32,538 bases of DNA from Candidatus Roizmanbacteria bacterium GW2011_GWC2_34_23 (GCA_000990305.1 LBPR01000014.1:1-32538); one strand, 5' to 3'. Shown: positions 4,734 through 21,928, numbered from the stretch's first letter. Notes: generated by a model not told the origin, from the sequence alone. Program-made: numbers and translations.

Positions 4734-4895
4734 AGGGTTTTATTTAAACAAATAACTAATAATAAATCAATCATAAAATACTATAAAACTAGTGTCTACC
4801 GCTTATAACCTACAAAGATGCAGTTTTAGATTATTAGAGCAACATAAAAATGACGATAGATACCCTTATAAATAATATGGTATATAATAGTGTCT

Positions 4896-11974: not shown

Positions 11975-12059
11975 TTTTTTATTTTGCGAGTTATTTATTT
12001 AACGAGTTAAAAACAAACTCGTTAAACCCGCTAAACTCGTAATAAATTAATAAATAATT
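11975..12059. repeat. Intergenic ACTCGTTAAA-family repeat, copy A (lacks GC palindrome)
   Basis: Contains tttaacgagtt...aactcgttaaacccgctaaactcgtaataaattaataaataatt; near-identical to copy C except for the missing palindrome. Confidence 0.85.
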
Positions 12060-12069
12060 TGCTTGTTTA

Positions 12070-12435
12070 TTATTTTCTAAGACGTTTTTCGCAGTCAATG
12101 CAAAATGAAGCTTCTGGAATCAGTTTTAACCTTGCCTGAGGAATTGATTTTTTACATCGTTCACAGTAACCATATAGGTTCTTATTTATTTTTTTTAACG
12201 CATTATCTATTTCAGTGGCTCTTTTTTGTAAGTCCTTAATTTCAGCCTCTATGGTATCATGTCCAACCTGTTCACGGACATCAGTGTCAACAGCCGCATT
12301 ATCCGAAGCATGGTCAGGATCGGCAAAGGGATCATTTTTTTTAAGATCTTCTATCTGATTAAGATTTTTTCTCCTTTCCTCCTCCAACCTTTTTTTTTGT
12401 CCCAACACGAATTGTTTTGAAAATTTTTTGTCCAT
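12070..12435 (-). CDS. DksA/TraR-type C4 zinc finger protein
   Basis: YGYCERCKKSIPQARLKLIPEASFCIDCEKR; DPFADPDHASDNAAVDTDVREQVGHD. Confidence 0.88.
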   Translation of the reverse strand: MDKKFSKQFVLGQKKRLEEERRKNLNQIEDLKKNDPFADPDHASDNAAVDTDVREQVGHDTIEAEIKDLQKRATEIDNALKKINKNLYGYCERCKKSIPQARLKLIPEASFCIDCEKRLRK

Positions 12436-13201
12436 AATGTTTTATAAAACTTAAAATTCCATTCCTAAAATAATATACAAAGTGAAAACTTATTGTCAAC
12501 AGAATTATTAATGAAACCAAAAAGTTTAAACTAAGACCTACGAAGTATAAACGATTATCTTTGATTTTGTCAAACAGAAAAATAGTTAAAGCTAAAAACC
12601 AAAGAAAGAACTTCAAAAGAAAACCTTTGTAGTACCTTTCTTTTCTTATTTCAAATAATATTTTGTAGGCTATCAAAACACCGATTACAAACATCAAACC
12701 TTCATATAGACCAACTAAATGCCTAAAGCCATCAAAGCCCACGTATTTTATTTTAAATAAAAAATTTGTTTTTGTGCCAATTTCCACTCCGGAAAAAAAT
12801 GCTCCAATTTTTCCAAAAGCCAGAGCAATAAAAAGAGGAGTAATTAAATAATCAATTAAATCAGCAAAATTTAATTTTCGTGCATTGGTAAACAAATACA
12901 AAATAAAAAGACCACCGAAGATTGATCCGTAAAGAGATAACCCAGGATAACCATTGATAAGAATAAACTTCAATAAATTAAAACCAAAATCTTTAAAATT
13001 TAAAAAAACAAAAATTAGCCGTCCAAAAAAAAGAGCGCCGAACATAGATAAAAATAATCCATCAAAGACATCTTCTTCTTTGAATGATGTTAAGCGAATA
13101 TTTTTCCAAAGTAAGAAAATCGCCCAAAAAAATCCCAAAACCAAAAATACCCCAAAAGTATAGATTTTCAGAAATCCTAAATTTAACAGTATCGGTAGCA
13201 T
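12359..13201 (-). CDS. lgt: Prolipoprotein diacylglyceryl transferase
   Basis: Lgt-like membrane topology with LSLYGSIFGGLFILYLF, ALAFGKIGAFFSG and YEGLMFVIG. Confidence 0.85.
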   Translation of the reverse strand: MLPILLNLGFLKIYTFGVFLVLGFFWAIFLLWKNIRLTSFKEEDVFDGLFLSMFGALFFGRLIFVFLNFKDFGFNLLKFILINGYPGLSLYGSIFGGLFILYLFTNARKLNFADLIDYLITPLFIALAFGKIGAFFSGVEIGTKTNFLFKIKYVGFDGFRHLVGLYEGLMFVIGVLIAYKILFEIRKERYYKGFLLKFFLWFLALTIFLFDKIKDNRLYFVGLSLNFLVSLIILLTISFHFVYYFRNGILSFIKHYGQKIFKTIRVGTKKKVGGGKEKKS

Positions 13202-13234
13202 GGTTTTTAGTATAATTTATTTATCTTAATCTTA

Positions 13235-14752
13235 TTGTCTGCATTTTTTATACGTTTTTATGGTATTAATTGGGACCAAGGCTTTCATCTTCATCCCGAT
13301 GAAAGAATGCTGATAATGGTAGCCGAAAGGATTAAATTTTTTTCTAATCTAAACCCGGATTTCTTTAATTACGGCAGTTTGCCAATATATCTTTTAAGAA
13401 TAATTGCTCCCAATGGTCATTATGATAGCTTACTAATCTCGGGAAGAATTTTATCGGTCGGATTTGATTTATTGACAATTATTTTGATTTATAGGATCGG
13501 GCAATTACTATTTAAAAAAAATAAAATTTCCTTATTATCCAGTTTACTTTATACAGTTGCCTTTTTTCCGATTCAAAATTCTCATTTTTTCGTTGTAGAT
13601 GTCTTTTTAAATACTTTTGTCACTGGATTAATATATATATTACTTGTTTATTCAAAGTCTCCGTCAATAAAAAAGGCAATCATTCTTGGTTTAGTCTTTG
13701 CCGCCATGATGGCTACTAAATTCACTGCCATAATTTTTTTGCCAATAATAATTGTTGTTATTTTATGGAAAACAATGAAGCAATGGAAAAATTCAGCAAT
13801 TTCTTTAATAACTTTTCACTTCTCACTTTTAACTTTTTACTTTCTTTTCATGCCTTATGCCTTTATTCAGCATCAGCAATTTTTTGTCGATTTATCAACC
13901 CAGCTCAAAATGAATTCTAACCCATATATTTTTCCCTATACCCTGCAATACGTTGGGACTGTCCCCTACCTCTATTATCTTAAAAACATATTCTTTTGGG
14001 GATTAGGACCGATTTTTTCTATTCTATCGATAGTTGGTTTATATCAAATATCAAAAAGTAAAAACATTTTATTTTTAATATTTTATTTTTTATATTTCTT
14101 GGCTATCGGGCGTTCTGCTGTTAAATTTATGCGTTATATGTTACCTCTTTATCCATTTTTTGCACTCTTAGCAGGTTATGGTCTTTATAAAATTTATGAA
14201 CGTAATAAACTTTTTGCTTATATGTTAGTAACTTGTATTTTATTATGGTCTTTTACGTTTATTAATATCTATTCATTGCCTCATACAAGAATTGCTGCCA
14301 CTGAATGGATATTAAAAAATGTTCCTGAAGGAGCAGCGATTGCTACTGAACACTGGGATGATGGTATGCCTCTTTATGGAGGTGAAAAATATCTTCGTCA
14401 AGAACTTACTCTTTATGATCAACCAGATGGTGAAAATAAATGGAAAATATTAGATGAAAAATTAAGAAAAACCGATTACATAATTATCGCCTCTAATAGA
14501 CTGTATATTCCCCTACAAAAACTTAATGATTGCAAAAAATATAAATCTTGCTATCCAATAACTTCAAAATATTATCAAAAACTATTTTCCGAAAAACTTG
14601 GATTTAAAAAAGTTGCAGAGTTCACCACATACCCAAAATTGGAAATTGGAAATTGGAAATTGGAAATTCGTGACGACGTCGCGGATGAATCCTTCACTGT
14701 CTACGACCATCCGAAAATTATGATTTTTAAAAAAAATGAAAAGAATAATTGA
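13235..14752 (+). CDS. GT39-like membrane glycosyltransferase
   Basis: HLHPDERML acidic motif after the first TM, multiple TM helices, C-terminal TEHWDDGMPLY and FTVYDHPKIMIFKK. True start uncertain (TTG 13235 or an upstream non-ATG codon). Confidence 0.8.
   Translation: MSAFFIRFYGINWDQGFHLHPDERMLIMVAERIKFFSNLNPDFFNYGSLPIYLLRIIAPNGHYDSLLISGRILSVGFDLLTIILIYRIGQLLFKKNKISLLSSLLYTVAFFPIQNSHFFVVDVFLNTFVTGLIYILLVYSKSPSIKKAIILGLVFAAMMATKFTAIIFLPIIIVVILWKTMKQWKNSAISLITFHFSLLTFYFLFMPYAFIQHQQFFVDLSTQLKMNSNPYIFPYTLQYVGTVPYLYYLKNIFFWGLGPIFSILSIVGLYQISKSKNILFLIFYFLYFLAIGRSAVKFMRYMLPLYPFFALLAGYGLYKIYERNKLFAYMLVTCILLWSFTFINIYSLPHTRIAATEWILKNVPEGAAIATEHWDDGMPLYGGEKYLRQELTLYDQPDGENKWKILDEKLRKTDYIIIASNRLYIPLQKLNDCKKYKSCYPITSKYYQKLFSEKLGFKKVAEFTTYPKLEIGNWKLEIRDDVADESFTVYDHPKIMIFKKNEKNN
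14638..14668. repeat. 7-bp tandem repeat (ATTGGAA)x4 in coding sequence
   Basis: attggaaattggaaattggaaattggaaatt, encoding LEIGNWKLEI near the C-terminus of the GT39-like protein. Confidence 0.95.
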
Positions 14753-16280
14753 TTTAATTAAAACTGATTTTTTTATAATATTTTTTTTGTTAATCGTAGC
14801 AGTGATCCCTCGACTAATATTATTGGATAAAATTCCTCCCGGGATTCATGGTGATGAGGGGTGGATAGGTATTAATGCGTTAAGAATAATCAATGATGGT
14901 TATGCTCCACCCGTCTTTGTTGGCGATCTTCAGGGTACTCCTACTGGCAATTTATATTTGGTGGCTTTTATTTTGAAAATTTTTGGTAATTCAATCCATT
15001 CTTTACGGCTATCAATGGCATTATTGGGAATAATAGCTATACCTTTGTTTTATGTTTTTTTAAGATATTTTTTTGATAAAAAAATATCTTTTTTGACTGC
15101 TTTTGCCATGTCGTTTTCATTAATTCATATTTATTATTCACGTGTTACTTTTATGGTAATTAGTGCTCAATTTTTCCAAATTTTGTCACTAATATTTTTT
15201 ATTCAGTTTGACAAAAATAGGAAACTCTATTCACTGATTTTATGTGCAATTTGCACAGGTTTAGGTTTATATTCTTATTATGTATTTATTCTGTTTCCAT
15301 TTACTTTAATTGTTTATTTATTAACAAAAATTTTAATAACTAAATTTTCTTTTAAGGAAATAAAATATTTATTAATTTTTCTTCTTTTTTTTATTCTGTT
15401 TAGTATTCCATTCGAAAGGATTATTTTTTTCCAATCAAAATTTTATTTTGATCATTTTAAATCCTACTCGACCATTAAAGAACTTTTGACAAAGAATAGT
15501 ACGATAACTTTTATCGGATTACAAGCATTTTTTTATCACGGAATAAATAAAATAAAAATATTTTTTATAGGGAAGAATGTAGATTATATAGACGGTTTTG
15601 GAAAATATTACGTTTTTAATTACTCTTATCTTATTTTTGCCCTTTTCGGTTTGGTGATATCTTTTATTAAAAAATATCGTCAACGTTTTTTTGTATTTTG
15701 TTCTTTTTTATTTTTCCTTTTAGCTCCTAATTTTCTAACATTCAATGGAATTTATAGAAGACAGGTTTTAAATTTTATTAATATATTTTTCTTTTTAGCA
15801 ATTTTTATCGATTTTGTTTTGAATAAAATTACCAAAAAAAAATTGGTGAGGCAATTTTTATTTTTATTAATAATCATATTGGTTATTTATAATTCTTGTT
15901 TTAATTTATTTGTTTATTTTAAAAAAATTCCGAATGATCAAGAAACAAATTGGGTCTTTACTCAAGACTTAACGCAAACTTTTTTAAAACTCAAAAATAT
16001 ATATACTCCTAAAGATAGAGTGTTATTCTATTCGTCCCGCTGGGATTGTAATTATGAATCGATAAAATTTATTATTCCTAATTTGAATTGTGAGGATAGA
16101 TCTACCGAATTCGGAAAATTCTCACAATCTTTTCCAGCGAGTAAAAAATATATATTTATACTTTTAAATGAATATTTAAAAAATATTGAGGAAATCAAAA
16201 AAAAGTATCCTAAAGGTACATTGATTGAAGTCGAAAATGATAATAAGGATTTAATCGGAATTATCTATAAAACCGATTAA
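14736..16280 (+). CDS. GT39-like membrane glycosyltransferase
   Basis: PPGIHGDEGWIGINALRI acidic motif after TM1, polytopic; 17 nt overlap with the upstream glycosyltransferase. Confidence 0.8.
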   Translation: MKRIIDLIKTDFFIIFFLLIVAVIPRLILLDKIPPGIHGDEGWIGINALRIINDGYAPPVFVGDLQGTPTGNLYLVAFILKIFGNSIHSLRLSMALLGIIAIPLFYVFLRYFFDKKISFLTAFAMSFSLIHIYYSRVTFMVISAQFFQILSLIFFIQFDKNRKLYSLILCAICTGLGLYSYYVFILFPFTLIVYLLTKILITKFSFKEIKYLLIFLLFFILFSIPFERIIFFQSKFYFDHFKSYSTIKELLTKNSTITFIGLQAFFYHGINKIKIFFIGKNVDYIDGFGKYYVFNYSYLIFALFGLVISFIKKYRQRFFVFCSFLFFLLAPNFLTFNGIYRRQVLNFINIFFFLAIFIDFVLNKITKKKLVRQFLFLLIIILVIYNSCFNLFVYFKKIPNDQETNWVFTQDLTQTFLKLKNIYTPKDRVLFYSSRWDCNYESIKFIIPNLNCEDRSTEFGKFSQSFPASKKYIFILLNEYLKNIEEIKKKYPKGTLIEVENDNKDLIGIIYKTD

Positions 16281-16281
16281 A

Positions 16282-17334
16282 CTACATAATCTTTTTAATC
16301 AACCCCAATATCCCCTGCTTCCAGCCGACGGTGTGAGTGACACCGGAGCCACGAGATTTAATTTCTTTATAATTTTTTAAATACCATTTATATGCTTTTA
16401 TCAGCGCGTCGGAATTTGAATACCGTGGGTGCCAATTAAGAGCCTTAGTTAGTTTATTTATTGACACAAAAGAATCTTTATCTGCAGTGTCATAAACCCA
16501 TTGGTATAAGGGAGATAGTTTAAGTTTTTCAAATAACCATAAAGCTTTTTTAACCAGAAATGCTGGAGTTGGAAATATTCTTGATTTTGAATTTAAGGCT
16601 TCAAACATTATTTTGAAATCACCTTTGATAGTGGTAAATTTTTCGGCTCCGATATTAAAAGCTGTATTTAAGGTCCGTCCTTTATAAGGAGGACGTACCT
16701 TAGTAAACAAGTAAATCGCTTCACATAAATCATCAATGTCTAAAAGTTGGTAACGGTTATTCCCCGACCCGATTACTGGAATTTTTTTTCCATCATGTAT
16801 CCAGTCAAAAAGAATTTCAAATACACCTAAACGATGGGTGCCCAAAAAAGTTTTTGGTCTAATAATCGTAACATTCAAACCTTTTTTTATATATTGAAAA
16901 CAAAGATTCTCTGCATCAATTTTTGATTGCCCGTAAGGACCTACACCAACTCTAGGATCGCTTTCATAAATTGGATGTTTCTTTGGTACACCATAAACTG
17001 CGGTTGATGAGATATATATAACCCATTTAACTTTATTTTCAAAAGATGCTTTCAAAATGTTATTTGTTCCGCCAACATTTATTTTCATGATCTCCTCGTT
17101 TTTCCATAGAGGTAAAGCCGCCGCCGCATGAATAACAAAATCCATACCTTTGATGTATCGATACATCAAAGCGTTATTTCTAATATCAGCATTTATAAAA
17201 TGGCAATTTTTCGGGTATTCTTTTTTATTAAAATCCGCAATGTCTAAGAGGTAGACATTATATTTTTTTTTAGAAAAAAAACGGGCAAGATGAAGTCCTA
17301 AAAAACCTGCGCCCCCCGTAATCAATATTTTCAT
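16282..17334 (-). CDS. NAD-dependent epimerase/dehydratase (extended SDR)
   Basis: ITGGAGFLGLHLARFF Rossmann motif, YGQSK catalytic YxxxK. Confidence 0.93.
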   Translation of the reverse strand: MKILITGGAGFLGLHLARFFSKKKYNVYLLDIADFNKKEYPKNCHFINADIRNNALMYRYIKGMDFVIHAAAALPLWKNEEIMKINVGGTNNILKASFENKVKWVIYISSTAVYGVPKKHPIYESDPRVGVGPYGQSKIDAENLCFQYIKKGLNVTIIRPKTFLGTHRLGVFEILFDWIHDGKKIPVIGSGNNRYQLLDIDDLCEAIYLFTKVRPPYKGRTLNTAFNIGAEKFTTIKGDFKIMFEALNSKSRIFPTPAFLVKKALWLFEKLKLSPLYQWVYDTADKDSFVSINKLTKALNWHPRYSNSDALIKAYKWYLKNYKEIKSRGSGVTHTVGWKQGILGLIKKIM

Positions 17335-17361
17335 AGGATTTTATGATAACATATTGAATCT

Positions 17362-17934
17362 GTGAAAAAAATTTTAAAAGTCGGCTTTGACCTTGATGGG
17401 GTTATTTTATACAATCCTATAAGATTTGTTCGACCAATTGCTAAATTATTAAAACCACTTAAATCTTTTATTTTAAAACAAAAAGAAGAATTTTTTTATT
17501 ATCCCGAATCTAACGTTGAACAGTTTCTTTTTCGTCTCCTTCATAAAACTAGCTTTATGGCTGACCCTGCACTAAAGGATATAGAATTATTAGTAAAATC
17601 AAAAAAAATTAAAGCTTATATAATAACTGGACGATATAGTTTTTTAAAAAAGGATTATAAAGTTTGGTTAAAAAAAATTAATGCAGATTCAATATTTGAG
17701 AAATGTTATCAGAATAAGGATGATTTACAACCGAATGAGTTTAAAGAAAAAATGATAAAAAAATTGAATCTTGATATTTATATTGAAGATAATTTGGATA
17801 TAGTCCAAAAACTAAATCATCATACTAACGCAAAAATCTTTTGGATTACAAATATATTAGATAAATATATTTCTTATCAATATAAATTTAGAAATCTTAA
17901 GGAAGCGCTTCAAAATTTGCCAAAATCAAAATAA
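17362..17934 (+). CDS. HAD-like hydrolase
   Basis: GFDLDGVILYN (DxDG) motif, IITGR motif II, IEDNLDIV motif; GTG start. Confidence 0.75.
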   Translation: MKKILKVGFDLDGVILYNPIRFVRPIAKLLKPLKSFILKQKEEFFYYPESNVEQFLFRLLHKTSFMADPALKDIELLVKSKKIKAYIITGRYSFLKKDYKVWLKKINADSIFEKCYQNKDDLQPNEFKEKMIKKLNLDIYIEDNLDIVQKLNHHTNAKIFWITNILDKYISYQYKFRNLKEALQNLPKSK

Positions 17935-18797
17935 TTACTTTTTAAACATCTTCTTATAAAAGCAAATTTTTCATTATCGATATAAAAACGAAGGATATCT
18001 CTAGTCGTAATAATACCTAATGGCCGTCTTTCTTTATCAGTGATAATTACACTTCCAATCTTTTTATTAAAAATAAGATTAATCGCTTCTATTAAATGAT
18101 TTTCTTTTGATAAAGTTAATACGTAGCTTTTGGCAAAGTTTTTTACCCGATAGTTATAAAAGCTGATATTTTCCCTACCTCTTTCTCCGTGATGACTGGA
18201 ATATTTTGGACTAATCATTAGGTTAATCAAATCATAATAACTCAAGACTCCCTTTAGTTTTTTATCATGATTGATGACAATTAATTTAGAGATTTTTTTA
18301 GTTTTAAAAAGATGAATCGCTTGAGTGATAGTATCATCTTCAAAAACTGTAATCAAACCCTGCCATCTTTTACTAATGATTTTTTCAACTTTCACTTTAA
18401 AAATCGGTTGGTCTTTAAAATAAGATAATATTCGGCGGGCGGAGATAATCCCTAAAAATTTTTCTGAGGACTTGTCCCTCACCATTATTGGTGAGGGATC
18501 AAAAACCGGTAAATAATGAATTTTTGATTGGATAAAAAGTTCGCAAACTTTGGATAGTGGATAGTTAAGATAAATTTTTGCCGTATGAGTTAGGCAATGT
18601 TCAACTTTAGTATTTGCTGGTAGTGAGGTTTTGATCATCGTAAAGTATGGACTAACAATACCTATATACTTATCATCTTCATTAAAAACGAACGCAGCAT
18701 CGTGCGAGGTTGACAGTTTACTTAGAACTTTGGAAAGATGATCTTCTGGAGAAACTTTAATAATATCGTTCTCTTTTAAAATATTCAAAAGCCGCAT
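17910..18797 (-). CDS. Protein with about four CBS domains
   Basis: Repeated G(I/V)xSxxxxL patterns: YIGIVSPYF, FLGIISARRIL, LKGVLSYYDLI, PLGIITTRDIL. Confidence 0.88.
   Translation of the reverse strand: MRLLNILKENDIIKVSPEDHLSKVLSKLSTSHDAAFVFNEDDKYIGIVSPYFTMIKTSLPANTKVEHCLTHTAKIYLNYPLSKVCELFIQSKIHYLPVFDPSPIMVRDKSSEKFLGIISARRILSYFKDQPIFKVKVEKIISKRWQGLITVFEDDTITQAIHLFKTKKISKLIVINHDKKLKGVLSYYDLINLMISPKYSSHHGERGRENISFYNYRVKNFAKSYVLTLSKENHLIEAINLIFNKKIGSVIITDKERRPLGIITTRDILRFYIDNEKFAFIRRCLKSNYFDFGKF
18475..18498. repeat. Perfect inverted repeat in CBS-domain gene
   Basis: TCCCTCACCA-ttat-TGGTGAGGGA, encoding DPSPIMVRD on the minus strand. Confidence 0.95.
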
Positions 18798-18804
18798 ACT
18801 AAAT

Positions 18805-20004
18805 TTATATCACAAATAAGCCATTTTTGTAAATGAGTTTTTTTGACCCATCTTTTAAGATTGCCTCGACAGTCTTTTTATTAGTATTGATGATATCACA
18901 GTGCTCGACCGATTCATTAAATCCTAGTTTTTCCCAATCTTTTTTCACCATTGTTTTTGTATCACCATTGTAACAATCGTGAAAAGAAGTACCAACGGCT
19001 AAATGAGAGTTTCCGTACTCTCCCCCAAAGTTTTCATCATACAAAGTATTGGCCATGAACTTAGAAATTTTTGAAAATCTTTTATCAGTTAAAGAAAACT
19101 CGCCGATTTTATTGGCGTTTTTTTGTTTAATCATTTCCTGTAAAAGTTTTTCATTTTTATCAGCCGTCGCTTTGATGACAATTCCGTCTTTAAATTCAAG
19201 CTGAATGTTTTTAATAATATTCCCATAACGATAAAGTGGAAAGTTGAAAAATATTTTACCATTAACTCCACGCCAATCAGGCGAAGTAAAGATTTCAAAC
19301 GAAGGAATATTAAATCCCCTAGCCCCCTGCCATTTTCTTTTTTCTCCAAGGGAGATATAAATATCAGTTTTATCAGAAATCAAATGATAACTCTCAACCG
19401 GCATAGAATTCAATTTTTTTATTAAGCCGTTTATTTGTTCAAAGGTTGAATTCCAAGTCTTTATTGGGTTTTCTTGATCTAAATAACAGGCATTAATGAT
19501 TTCCTGCCAAAAATCTTTTAATGATAAACCTGCCTCTTGGGCTATTCCCTCTGTCCCATAAAGACAAAGCGTCCAAGTTAGTTTTCCTTTGTCCTCTTTT
19601 TCAAATAACCAGCGGCGCAACATTTGTTTTTCTGAGTTTGCAGTTATGATTTTTTTGGGCTCAATGTTTTTTAGAAGAAACGGATTTGTTGGAGCGATTA
19701 AATATATTCTATGGTCAATTGTATTGACTAAAGATTTTGTATATTTTTTGGGAAAAAACTTTAGCTGATCATCAGAGGCATTTTCAAACATGACCTTTTG
19801 AAAACTCTCTTCTATTCCCTTGACCATCGGATAAGCGCCTTTTTCTAGGATTCTTTTATAAACCGCAAGCGCGAGTGGAAGGGCCTCTGAATCGTACTGA
19901 AGATATACAACTTCTCCTTTCTTGACCCCTTTCCCCTTACCCAACGCAAAATCGATCATAACCTTTGCGTATTTTTCAAGGATTTTCTTATCCGGTGTAT
20001 ACAT
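18805..20004 (-). CDS. M29-family aminopeptidase
   Basis: C-terminal GEYGNSHLAVGTSFHDCYNGD and NVEHCD-like SVEHCDIIN; overall M29 organisation. Confidence 0.8.
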   Translation of the reverse strand: MYTPDKKILEKYAKVMIDFALGKGKGVKKGEVVYLQYDSEALPLALAVYKRILEKGAYPMVKGIEESFQKVMFENASDDQLKFFPKKYTKSLVNTIDHRIYLIAPTNPFLLKNIEPKKIITANSEKQMLRRWLFEKEDKGKLTWTLCLYGTEGIAQEAGLSLKDFWQEIINACYLDQENPIKTWNSTFEQINGLIKKLNSMPVESYHLISDKTDIYISLGEKRKWQGARGFNIPSFEIFTSPDWRGVNGKIFFNFPLYRYGNIIKNIQLEFKDGIVIKATADKNEKLLQEMIKQKNANKIGEFSLTDKRFSKISKFMANTLYDENFGGEYGNSHLAVGTSFHDCYNGDTKTMVKKDWEKLGFNESVEHCDIINTNKKTVEAILKDGSKKLIYKNGLFVI

Positions 20005-20012
20005 ATTTATTA

Positions 20013-20115
20013 TTTTTTTATTTAGCGAGTTTAACGAGTTGACGAGTTAAAAAAACTCGCAAAACTCCCTGCCTGCCGGCAGGCAGGTCTAAACTCGAAA
20101 TAAATTAATAGTTAA
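20013..20115. repeat. Intergenic ACTCGTTAAA-family repeat, copy B with 20-bp palindrome
   Basis: tttagcgagtttaacgagttgacgagtt...CCTGCCTGCCGGCAGGCAGG (20068-20087)...ctaaactcgaaataaattaat. Confidence 0.9.
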
Positions 20116-20133
20116 TTATATCAATTTAAGTAT

Positions 20134-20976
20134 TTAATCTTTTGGTAAAAAGTGGCGCAGGATATGGCCGGCAAGCTCCGAGGCAACACCGACGCTATAG
20201 AATACCGAATTTATTCCCATTTCCATCAAGGCTTTTTTCATAAGTAAAACACCTGCTTGAGTCAGGCTAATTGACCGATGAAAGATCTTACTTGGTTTTA
20301 TCCCGAGCTTCTTGGTGGCCAAAATAAAGGCGGCCGCCGAAGCACCGGAAGCCGGATTGACAAAGTCGCTAATTAAAATTTCTTTGTTATTAATTTGTTT
20401 TAATTGTTCTTTGTTTCGCCATAAAACTGTTACTGATAAATTCGTCGTTGGCTCATCTTTTAGATGAGTTCTTTTTGTCACCACACGAATTTCATTTTTA
20501 AGTTTAGCGTTTTTACTTTTCCCTAATGCCAATCTAGTCGTCACGAGTCCGGCTCGCTCCAAACTGATTGCCGGTAAATTTCGGTCTTCAATCTTAAACT
20601 GTTTTTCATGTTTATTAAGTAGTTCATAGCCTTCTTTAGCCAAAAGAAAGTATTCGTTAGCAATTCCAGTGTCATGATAAAAGACTGAATTAAAAACAAT
20701 TTTTTGAGCAATTACATTAATCTTGTCCATCAAATATTTAGCATTATCATAATAATTTTCCAAAACGAAGATTTTATTTTTCTCCAATTCTTTCAAGTTC
20801 CATTTACCAAACTGGCCGTGATATTTGCCAATAATTTTTGTATAAGTATCTTTGAATTTAACCAGGTGGTCAACATTGTGGTCGCCAAAAAAATTATCAG
20901 GGTCCAAAAGAAGTGGTTCGACATCAATTTTGTGGCCGTCTTTACCTGATTGGATAACTACTTTATCGAAAATCAT
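20134..20976 (-). CDS. Divergent uracil phosphoribosyltransferase-like PRTase
   Basis: LERAGLVTTRLALG and ILISDFVNPASGASAAAF in the position of the UPRT PRPP loop (canonical DPMLATGGS); VASELAGHI C-terminus. Confidence 0.6.
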   Translation of the reverse strand: MIFDKVVIQSGKDGHKIDVEPLLLDPDNFFGDHNVDHLVKFKDTYTKIIGKYHGQFGKWNLKELEKNKIFVLENYYDNAKYLMDKINVIAQKIVFNSVFYHDTGIANEYFLLAKEGYELLNKHEKQFKIEDRNLPAISLERAGLVTTRLALGKSKNAKLKNEIRVVTKRTHLKDEPTTNLSVTVLWRNKEQLKQINNKEILISDFVNPASGASAAAFILATKKLGIKPSKIFHRSISLTQAGVLLMKKALMEMGINSVFYSVGVASELAGHILRHFLPKD

Positions 20977-21005
20977 ATATATTACCTATATATTACCTAT
21001 TTGTT

Positions 21006-21110
21006 ATTTTTTTATTTAACGAGTTATTTATTTAGCGAGTTTGAAACTCGTTAAACTCCCTGCCTGCCGGCAGGCAGGTCTAAACTCGTAATAAATTAAT
21101 AAATAATTAA
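21006..21110. repeat. Intergenic ACTCGTTAAA-family repeat, copy C with 20-bp palindrome
   Basis: tttaacgagttatttatttagcgagtttgaaactcgttaaactcCCTGCCTGCCGGCAGGCAGGtctaaactcgtaataaattaataaataatt; palindrome at 21059-21078. Confidence 0.92.
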
Positions 21111-21928
21111 AGATATTTATTTATCTCATTTCTCAATTTCATCGCTTCTTCTCGTGGATTTTCGGCAAAAATTATTCCGCGGGAAGAATTTATTATTAAA
21201 CCTTGTTTTTTAGAATTTAAGCCAACTTTCAAAGTTGCTTCTAGATCGCCTCCTTGAGCTCCAATCCCTGGAACAAGCAAAGTCATGTCTCCGACTATCT
21301 TTCTTACTTCTTTTAATTCGCCTGGATAGGTTGCTCCAACTACCAACAGGCAATTTTTGTTCTTATTCCATTTATTAATAACATTTTCTGCAACGATTTG
21401 ATACAAGGGTCTTACCATCTTTGCTCGATCGTACAGAGATGGTATCGAAACCTGAAGGTTTTGGAATTCATCACTACCAGGATTGGAAGTTTTACATAAA
21501 ATAATTATTCCTTTATCTTTACAGTCTAAAAATGGTCTTATAGCCTCTTCTCCAAGGTATGGGTGAAGGGTAACTGCGTCAGCCCCAAGGTATGTAAAAA
21601 TAAATTGAACATACCCCTTGTTTGTGTTGCCTATATCCGCCCGCTTGGCATCAACGATGATTGGAATTTCCGGATATTTCTGTACTAAATAATCACAGGT
21701 GTCTTTTAAGGCATTGATTCCTTCATGTCCTATAGACTCATAGAAGGCCGTGTTCAACTTGTATGAACAAACGAGGTCATGGGTGGCTTCAATGATGGTC
21801 TTATTGAACGAAAGCTGCTTTGCCTCGCCGAAGTCTTGACGAAGGCGGGTTACATCACTATCTAACCCTACACAAACCAATGATTTATTCTTTTTGACAA
21901 TCTTATCTAGTTTTTCTTGAAAGGTCAT
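21107..21928 (-). CDS. pyrF: Orotidine 5'-phosphate decarboxylase (type 2)
   Basis: VCVGLDSD, IIVDAKRADIGNT, LVVGATYPGELKEVR, LVPGIGAQGGD. Confidence 0.95.
   Translation of the reverse strand: MTFQEKLDKIVKKNKSLVCVGLDSDVTRLRQDFGEAKQLSFNKTIIEATHDLVCSYKLNTAFYESIGHEGINALKDTCDYLVQKYPEIPIIVDAKRADIGNTNKGYVQFIFTYLGADAVTLHPYLGEEAIRPFLDCKDKGIIILCKTSNPGSDEFQNLQVSIPSLYDRAKMVRPLYQIVAENVINKWNKNKNCLLVVGATYPGELKEVRKIVGDMTLLVPGIGAQGGDLEATLKVGLNSKKQGLIINSSRGIIFAENPREEAMKLRNEINKYL

Follow-up and report, generated by a model that had tools for sequence, protein, structure and literature searches.

A 20-bp palindrome in hairpin repeats, genes and tRNAs of Candidatus Roizmanbacteria and other bacteria: a probable very small mobile DNA unit

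The locus described here lies in a 32,538-nt stretch of DNA of Candidatus Roizmanbacteria bacterium GW2011_GWC2_34_23 (GCA_000990305.1 LBPR01000014.1:1-32538; hereafter the window). Three intergenic copies of an AT-rich repeat, A, B and C, are placed there between co-directional minus-strand genes, all at the positions given by the initial annotation of this DNA (Table 1). Copies B and C contain a GC-rich 20-bp perfect palindrome, CCTGCCTGCCGGCAGGCAGG, and copy A does not. Is the palindrome a piece of DNA that enters the repeat or an old part of it that copy A has lost, and if it enters, what brings it there? We suggest that the palindrome is quite probably a mobile DNA unit of very small size and non-autonomous, inserted at the DNA level by an enzyme acting in trans, as judged from the sequence contexts in which it occurs.

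Filled and empty sites of the palindrome

The host repeat, hereafter the ACTCG element, is AT-rich, about 85-105 bp long, made of ACTCG/CGAGT words and forms an extended hairpin when folded (as RNA, z -4.9 to -6.1 for copies A-C; as DNA, z -5.8 for copy C). The genome holds 11 copies that retain the insertion region, of which 4 are filled and 7 are empty; thus the palindrome is not a fixed ancestral part of the element with copy A as a lone deletion. Filled copies read AAACTC[20]TCTAAACTCG, where 20 stands for the palindrome, and exact empty copies read AAACTC|TCTAAACTCG. The latter are found in the same genome (C8:10468, C8:11634 and C26:3513) and also in the sister species G014. In these exact pairs the filled sequence minus the palindrome equals the empty one, so that the gain is exactly 20 bp, with no target duplication and no loss. 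All four filled copies carry the insertion at one identical nucleotide position, which bears out the earlier claim that copy B holds the palindrome at the same place as copy C. Copy A was proposed as their empty counterpart and is indeed homologous and empty. It reads AAACCCGCTAAACTCG (12024-12039), which matches an empty site in length and differs from it by substitutions at the junction; we therefore dropped it as an exact empty site, better ones being found elsewhere.

The filled copies are scattered by similarity. Copy B is nearest to one of the exact empty copies (0.89 without the palindrome; Table 1), and the filled copy C3:50333 is nearest to the empty copy of G014 (0.93). Because they fail to cluster, either the site was filled on more than one occasion or the insertion passed from copy to copy by conversion. 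Slippage between the flanking TC repeats would give AAACTCTAAAC, whereas the observed junction is AAACTCTCTAAAC; a slippage deletion would leave a shorter junction than the one seen, and therefore the empty site is presumably the older state. Hence, comparison of copies argues strongly that the palindrome was ancestrally absent and is a precisely inserted 20-bp unit, polymorphic among copies of an otherwise matching element; the initial annotation had proposed an insertion or a deletion.

The palindrome is not bound to this element. In the window it occurs only in copies B and C even when up to 3 mismatches are allowed (chance expectation 0.00, 100 shuffles), and the genome as a whole (707 kb in 29 contigs) contains 21 exact copies, about one per 34 kb, against 0 for the reversed-pattern control. 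ACTCG elements host only 4 of the 21; most others lie in different AT-rich word repeats, one is in rplA and one in rplC. Since the palindrome sits in so many contexts besides the ACTCG element, it moves independently of it. The idea of a composite element, a GC palindrome within an AT-rich host repeat, thus holds for the insertion itself and is too narrow in view of the other contexts and phyla described below.

Comparison with relatives shows the ACTCG element to be a distinct AT-rich hairpin repeat, specific to the lineage and itself inserted. In G013, whose flanking genes are 83-85% identical, both intergenic slots (B and C) are wholly without it, and other hairpin repeats occupy site B in G014 and site C in G015. 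The window gave no match in Rfam. We suggest that this repeat would be one favoured landing site of the palindrome.

Protein genes, tRNA genes, phages and phyla

Insertion is also seen inside conserved protein genes. The ribosomal protein L1 (rplA) of this genome reads EEFEK-SLPAGRQ-GKIEFDV, while 20 of 20 aligned relatives have EK-GKIEFDV or close to it. Ribosomal protein L3 (rplC) carries a DLPAGRQ insert that its five nearest relatives (82-90% identity) lack; the more distant G017 has this insert at the same nucleotide, and G007 a decayed one of equal length. Both inserts add 21 nt (7 aa), the size that preserves the frame. A coding insert of 18 nt, suggested by distant TypA and RluD homologues, was replaced by 21 nt as shown by these rplA and rplC relatives. 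In relatives the reading frame also continues through the palindrome in TypA, TopA, RecG, chorismate synthase (aroC), DNA ligase, RluD and other genes, these names being given by reading of the sequence and not by family search. One RluD-like pseudouridine synthase gene (L177) holds two palindrome inserts, both in frame.

Other palindromes were met as well. The rplC of G008 (L472) has a different GC-rich palindromic in-frame insert, PASAEASAGK, which suggests further families of the same kind, and a second perfect palindrome, CCGCCAGCTGGCGG, recurs across the loci compared, where it has 5 different contexts.

Several phyla have the palindrome inside tRNA genes or partial tRNA copies, where it interrupts the D, anticodon or T region, and it is found in at least 33 stretches of viral contigs. 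A phage tRNA-Met provides the clearest filled and empty pair among the tRNAs: L225 and L352 read CCACGAGG[20]TCGCCGG, and the related contigs L366, L368, L374, L392 and L394 read CCACGAGGTCGCCGG. The filled gene (L352 1196-1287), with the palindrome in the variable region, is still called a tRNA by ARAGORN, and its product would look like a tRNA of class II, in which the variable arm is long. Two independent viral samples (L203 and L230) carry an identical insertion.

In L099 (2115-2480), L145, L232 and L070 a small GIY-YIG nuclease gene is bordered on one side by a 5' partial tRNA copy that contains the palindrome and on the other by a repeat of that tRNA start; ARAGORN calls this second copy an intact tRNA in L099, L145 and L070. 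This arrangement, present in several phyla, looks like a tRNA-targeting homing-type element. At least 12 head-to-tail copies of a GIY-YIG gene, with a 357-bp period, are found in G023 (C2:272-4396).

Of 57 relatives, 15 are carriers, and the distribution is patchy even within the genus. Among the matches listed for GTDB genomes are Patescibacteria, Omnitrophota, Bacteroidota (cultured strains too), Nitrospirota, Elusimicrobia, Planctomycetes, Chloroflexi, Verrucomicrobia and WOR-1. The identical 20-mer is multicopy in Omnitrophota, Nitrospirota and other phyla and in phage contigs. Isolates of Bacteroidota are rich in copies (Longitalea luteola 29, Salegentibacter sp. R32 12 and Flavivirga sp. 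12), and the order to which Longitalea belongs has 23 carriers among 249 genomes, some with the palindrome on contigs above 1-2 Mb (up to 2.3 Mb). No exact full copy was found in the plasmid and phage reference collections, the 20-nt match in a Runella plasmid being partial only.

What may move the palindrome

The palindrome enters whole, all 20 bp of it between two neighbouring bases of the target, with 21 nt gained where the open reading frame must be kept. Its targets are AT-rich hairpin repeats, tRNA genes and their fragments, conserved coding genes and copies of the palindrome itself. We suggest the following mechanism. The self-complementary unit would move as DNA, in the form of a single-stranded hairpin or of a blunt duplex of 20 bp, and an enzyme acting in trans would insert it; the +20 and +21 products without duplication fit this.

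The target sequence itself is hardly specified. Among 205 distinct insertion sites the first outside base shows the only real flank preference (A 49%, T 8%, 0.24 bit, p ~4e-17), and positions 2-12 hold at most 0.05 bit each. In this genome the site flanks are hairpin-prone, 9 of 19 having z below -2 versus 12% of control windows (p 0.0005). Across all sites general targeting of hairpin loops is unsupported (Mann-Whitney p 0.32), and the junction shows a weak excess of stem-loop borders (16 versus 9.0 +- 2.6). Nested insertion into the palindrome itself or into similar palindromes is seen in L102 and L158.

Of the known movers, a single-stranded-DNA transposase of the Y1/HUH type that leaves no target-site duplication is the most plausible candidate, which we put forward tentatively. 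Insertion of a hairpin without duplication fits the chemistry of IS200/IS605. Six Y1_Tnp genes are present in this genome and at least one in 14 of the 15 carriers, and within the genus they are more numerous in carriers (p 0.005, kinship not corrected). The same facts are what would be expected if the palindrome were an ordinary REP/REPIN family (REP, repetitive extragenic palindromic sequence), moved by its RAYT (Y1) transposase as in Pseudomonas. We consider this unlikely. The palindrome flanks none of 18 Y1 genes inspected in 5 genomes, and most of these genes have distinct hairpins of their own, e.g. GGTCAGACCC.., CAACCTACGAGGTTG and GGTCAGACCCTG..TGTTAGGGTCTGACC (L247-L251, L255, L256, L258, L259, L262 and L264, from G000, G008, G017 and G029). 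Only one Y1 gene lies in the 1.15 Mb of loci around palindromes. The GTAG/CGTC tag stands at either side of only 2 and 1 of the 205 sites, with about 1.6 expected by chance. The copies are solitary, near pairs are rare, and the inverted doublets that define REP/REPIN are absent. Thus, of the REP-associated Y1 transposase for which the initial annotation advised a search elsewhere in the genome, the genes exist and the link to the palindrome is not supported.

A recurrent promoter-like motif with an extended -35 look, GTAGGTTATAAGCGGTTGACA, was noticed upstream of Y1 genes (L247-L252) and of some ACTCG repeats, and in the window at 4794-4813 (minus strand).

Spread through an RNA copy by reverse transcription, as proposed for the Nostoc SDR elements, is considerably less probable than the RAYT route. 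In tRNA-like sequence the insertions often fall in loops or where a stem meets its loop, and the weak general enrichment at borders points the same way; against this, no RVT_1 reverse transcriptase was found in any of the 20 genus genomes, of which six carry the palindrome in up to 21 copies, and this speaks rather strongly against the route in the genus.

Two further explanations are both very improbable. One takes the palindrome as a functional site (uptake sequence, methylation-linked palindrome like HIP1, or terminator) that arose by mutation in place. The fixed sequence across phyla would suit it, but the insertions are of exactly 20 bp, most species of the genus have no palindrome, there is no consistent T-run or flank, the density is far below that of uptake sequences, and tRNA copies are disrupted; a secondary function of the palindrome is possible. 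The other takes it as the footprint of an excised larger transposon with CCTGCCTGCC ends (pair form CCTGCCTGCC..GGCAGGCAGG), as two joined terminal inverted repeats would resemble a perfect palindrome. However, no free halves bounding a reading frame were seen: loci of at most 50% GC contain 189 full palindromes and 29 half matches, the latter almost all mutated full palindromes, and no gene is shared nearby.

A sequencing or assembly artefact is the least credible of all: the named records of the GTDB scan are all draft assemblies, mostly metagenome-assembled genomes, and finished plasmid and phage records lack an exact copy, but cultured isolates of several independent laboratories hold up to 29 copies, some on contigs above 1-2 Mb, which makes a short-read artefact unlikely, and the identical insertion in the two viral samples, the in-frame ribosomal inserts with conserved flanks and the decayed rplC insert of G007 speak against it as well.

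We return to insertion of a small mobile unit by an enzyme in trans, against which several points weigh. The enzyme is one that we infer: no gene is linked to the palindrome in 149 loci, and the Y1 genes inspected mostly have their own hairpins. GIY-YIG counts correlate with carriers too, so that the Y1 correlation may reflect mere tolerance of repeats, and G028, with one palindrome and no Y1 gene found in a genome 78% complete, hints that Y1 is not required. Repeated use of the ACTCG and rplC sites is not explained by near-unspecific insertion alone. That one sequence should stay fixed from phylum to phylum is hard to square with a selfish element whose enzyme is not very widespread. Finally, mobility is deduced from comparison of copies, contigs and relatives.

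We note that a widespread DNA-level enzyme whose specificity keeps the word unchanged would meet the objection of fixity. The sequence-fixed palindrome, put in by it without target duplication and partly carried by phages, would then be the smallest mobile DNA shared across phyla; this stronger version is plausible, though we put it somewhat below an even chance. Among known DNA pieces that appear to be mobile, the palindrome is one of the smallest.

Known systems and the setting in the window

The palindrome lacks the features that define REP/REPIN and also those of miniature inverted-repeat transposable elements (MITEs), namely terminal inverted repeats with a target duplication, which is 0 bp in the exact pairs. 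By analogy, it would work like the Nostoc SDRs, the Rickettsia palindromic elements (RPE) and the mitochondrial GC clusters. SDR1-SDR8 of Nostoc punctiforme, described by Elhai et al. in 2008, are reportedly 20-27 nt long, hairpin-forming, dispersed, placed within other repeats, self-nested and without a linked gene. The palindrome resembles them in its size class (about 20-30 nt), its capacity to form a hairpin, its dispersed multicopy state, its clean filled and empty sites inside repeats and its self-nesting. Unlike them, compared by description, it is perfect and loop-less, identical across phyla and phages, present in protein and tRNA genes, and found in a genus without reverse transcriptase.

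RPE are longer than 20 bp. The palindrome shares with them in-frame insertion in conserved genes, absence from orthologues and a short added peptide (here SLPAGRQ or DLPAGRQ); unlike them it has 20 bp, is untagged and is not limited to one genus. In R. conorii a CGTC end is seen in RPE-4 and RPE-6 (PMC3733652). REP/REPIN are similar as short GC-rich palindromes in many copies, with Y1 transposases in most carriers (PMC3116915, PMC3733652); the palindrome differs in having no GTAG/CGTC tag, doublets or flanking RAYT gene and in not being confined to extragenic DNA. Yeast mitochondrial GC clusters and sponge hairpin elements are mobile GC-rich palindromes of AT-rich spacers, with horizontal transfer and sometimes a genic position (PMC4478555, PMC2800124). 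Both are like the palindrome in having no known enzyme, but GC42 has 42 nt and a putative AG target duplication, as against 20 nt without duplication here. In cyanobacteria HIP1 (GCGATCGC) is likewise an over-represented perfect palindrome, associated with methyltransferases (PMC4390886); the difference is that the palindrome here demonstrably inserts. Neither the 20-mer, its sub-words nor LPAGRQ was found in the relevant indexed literature, subscription literature being outside the search, so that a prior description is possible.

With exact filled and empty sites, cultured and phage carriers, and insertions in ribosomal-protein and tRNA genes, the palindrome offers a clean and countable model for the spread of the smallest repeats, and the identity of its mover would settle a long-standing question, namely how elements with no room for any cargo are mobilised. 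The palindrome also accounts for the LPAGRQ peptide that recurs in metagenomic proteins and could mislead annotation and structure prediction.

Table 1. Coordinates of the repeat copies, the palindromes and the flanking genes in the window
Feature	Position	Strand	Remark
Copy A, ACTCG hairpin repeat, empty	11975..12059	.	RNA fold z -5.8
Copy A junction homologous to the insertion site	between 12029 and 12030		AAACCC|GCTAAACTCG, a diverged form of AAACTC|TCTAAACTCG, the exact empty site
M29 aminopeptidase (PF02073), flanking gene	18805..20004	-	Pfam; host context only
Copy B, ACTCG hairpin repeat, filled	20013..20115	.	nearest relative is the empty copy C26:3513
Perfect palindrome CCTGCCTGCCGGCAGGCAGG (20 bp) in copy B	20068..20087	.	
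Gene of a 280-aa protein between copies B and C	20134..20976	-	no Pfam match
Copy C, ACTCG hairpin repeat, filled	21006..21110	.	entire repeat missing from the orthologous site of sister species G013
Perfect palindrome CCTGCCTGCCGGCAGGCAGG (20 bp) in copy C	21059..21078	.	projects as a side hairpin from one arm of the hairpin formed by the host repeat
Orotidine 5'-phosphate decarboxylase family (PF00215), flanking gene	21107..21928	-	Pfam

Copy A is neighboured by genes of a Na/H exchanger and of a DksA-type zinc-finger protein.

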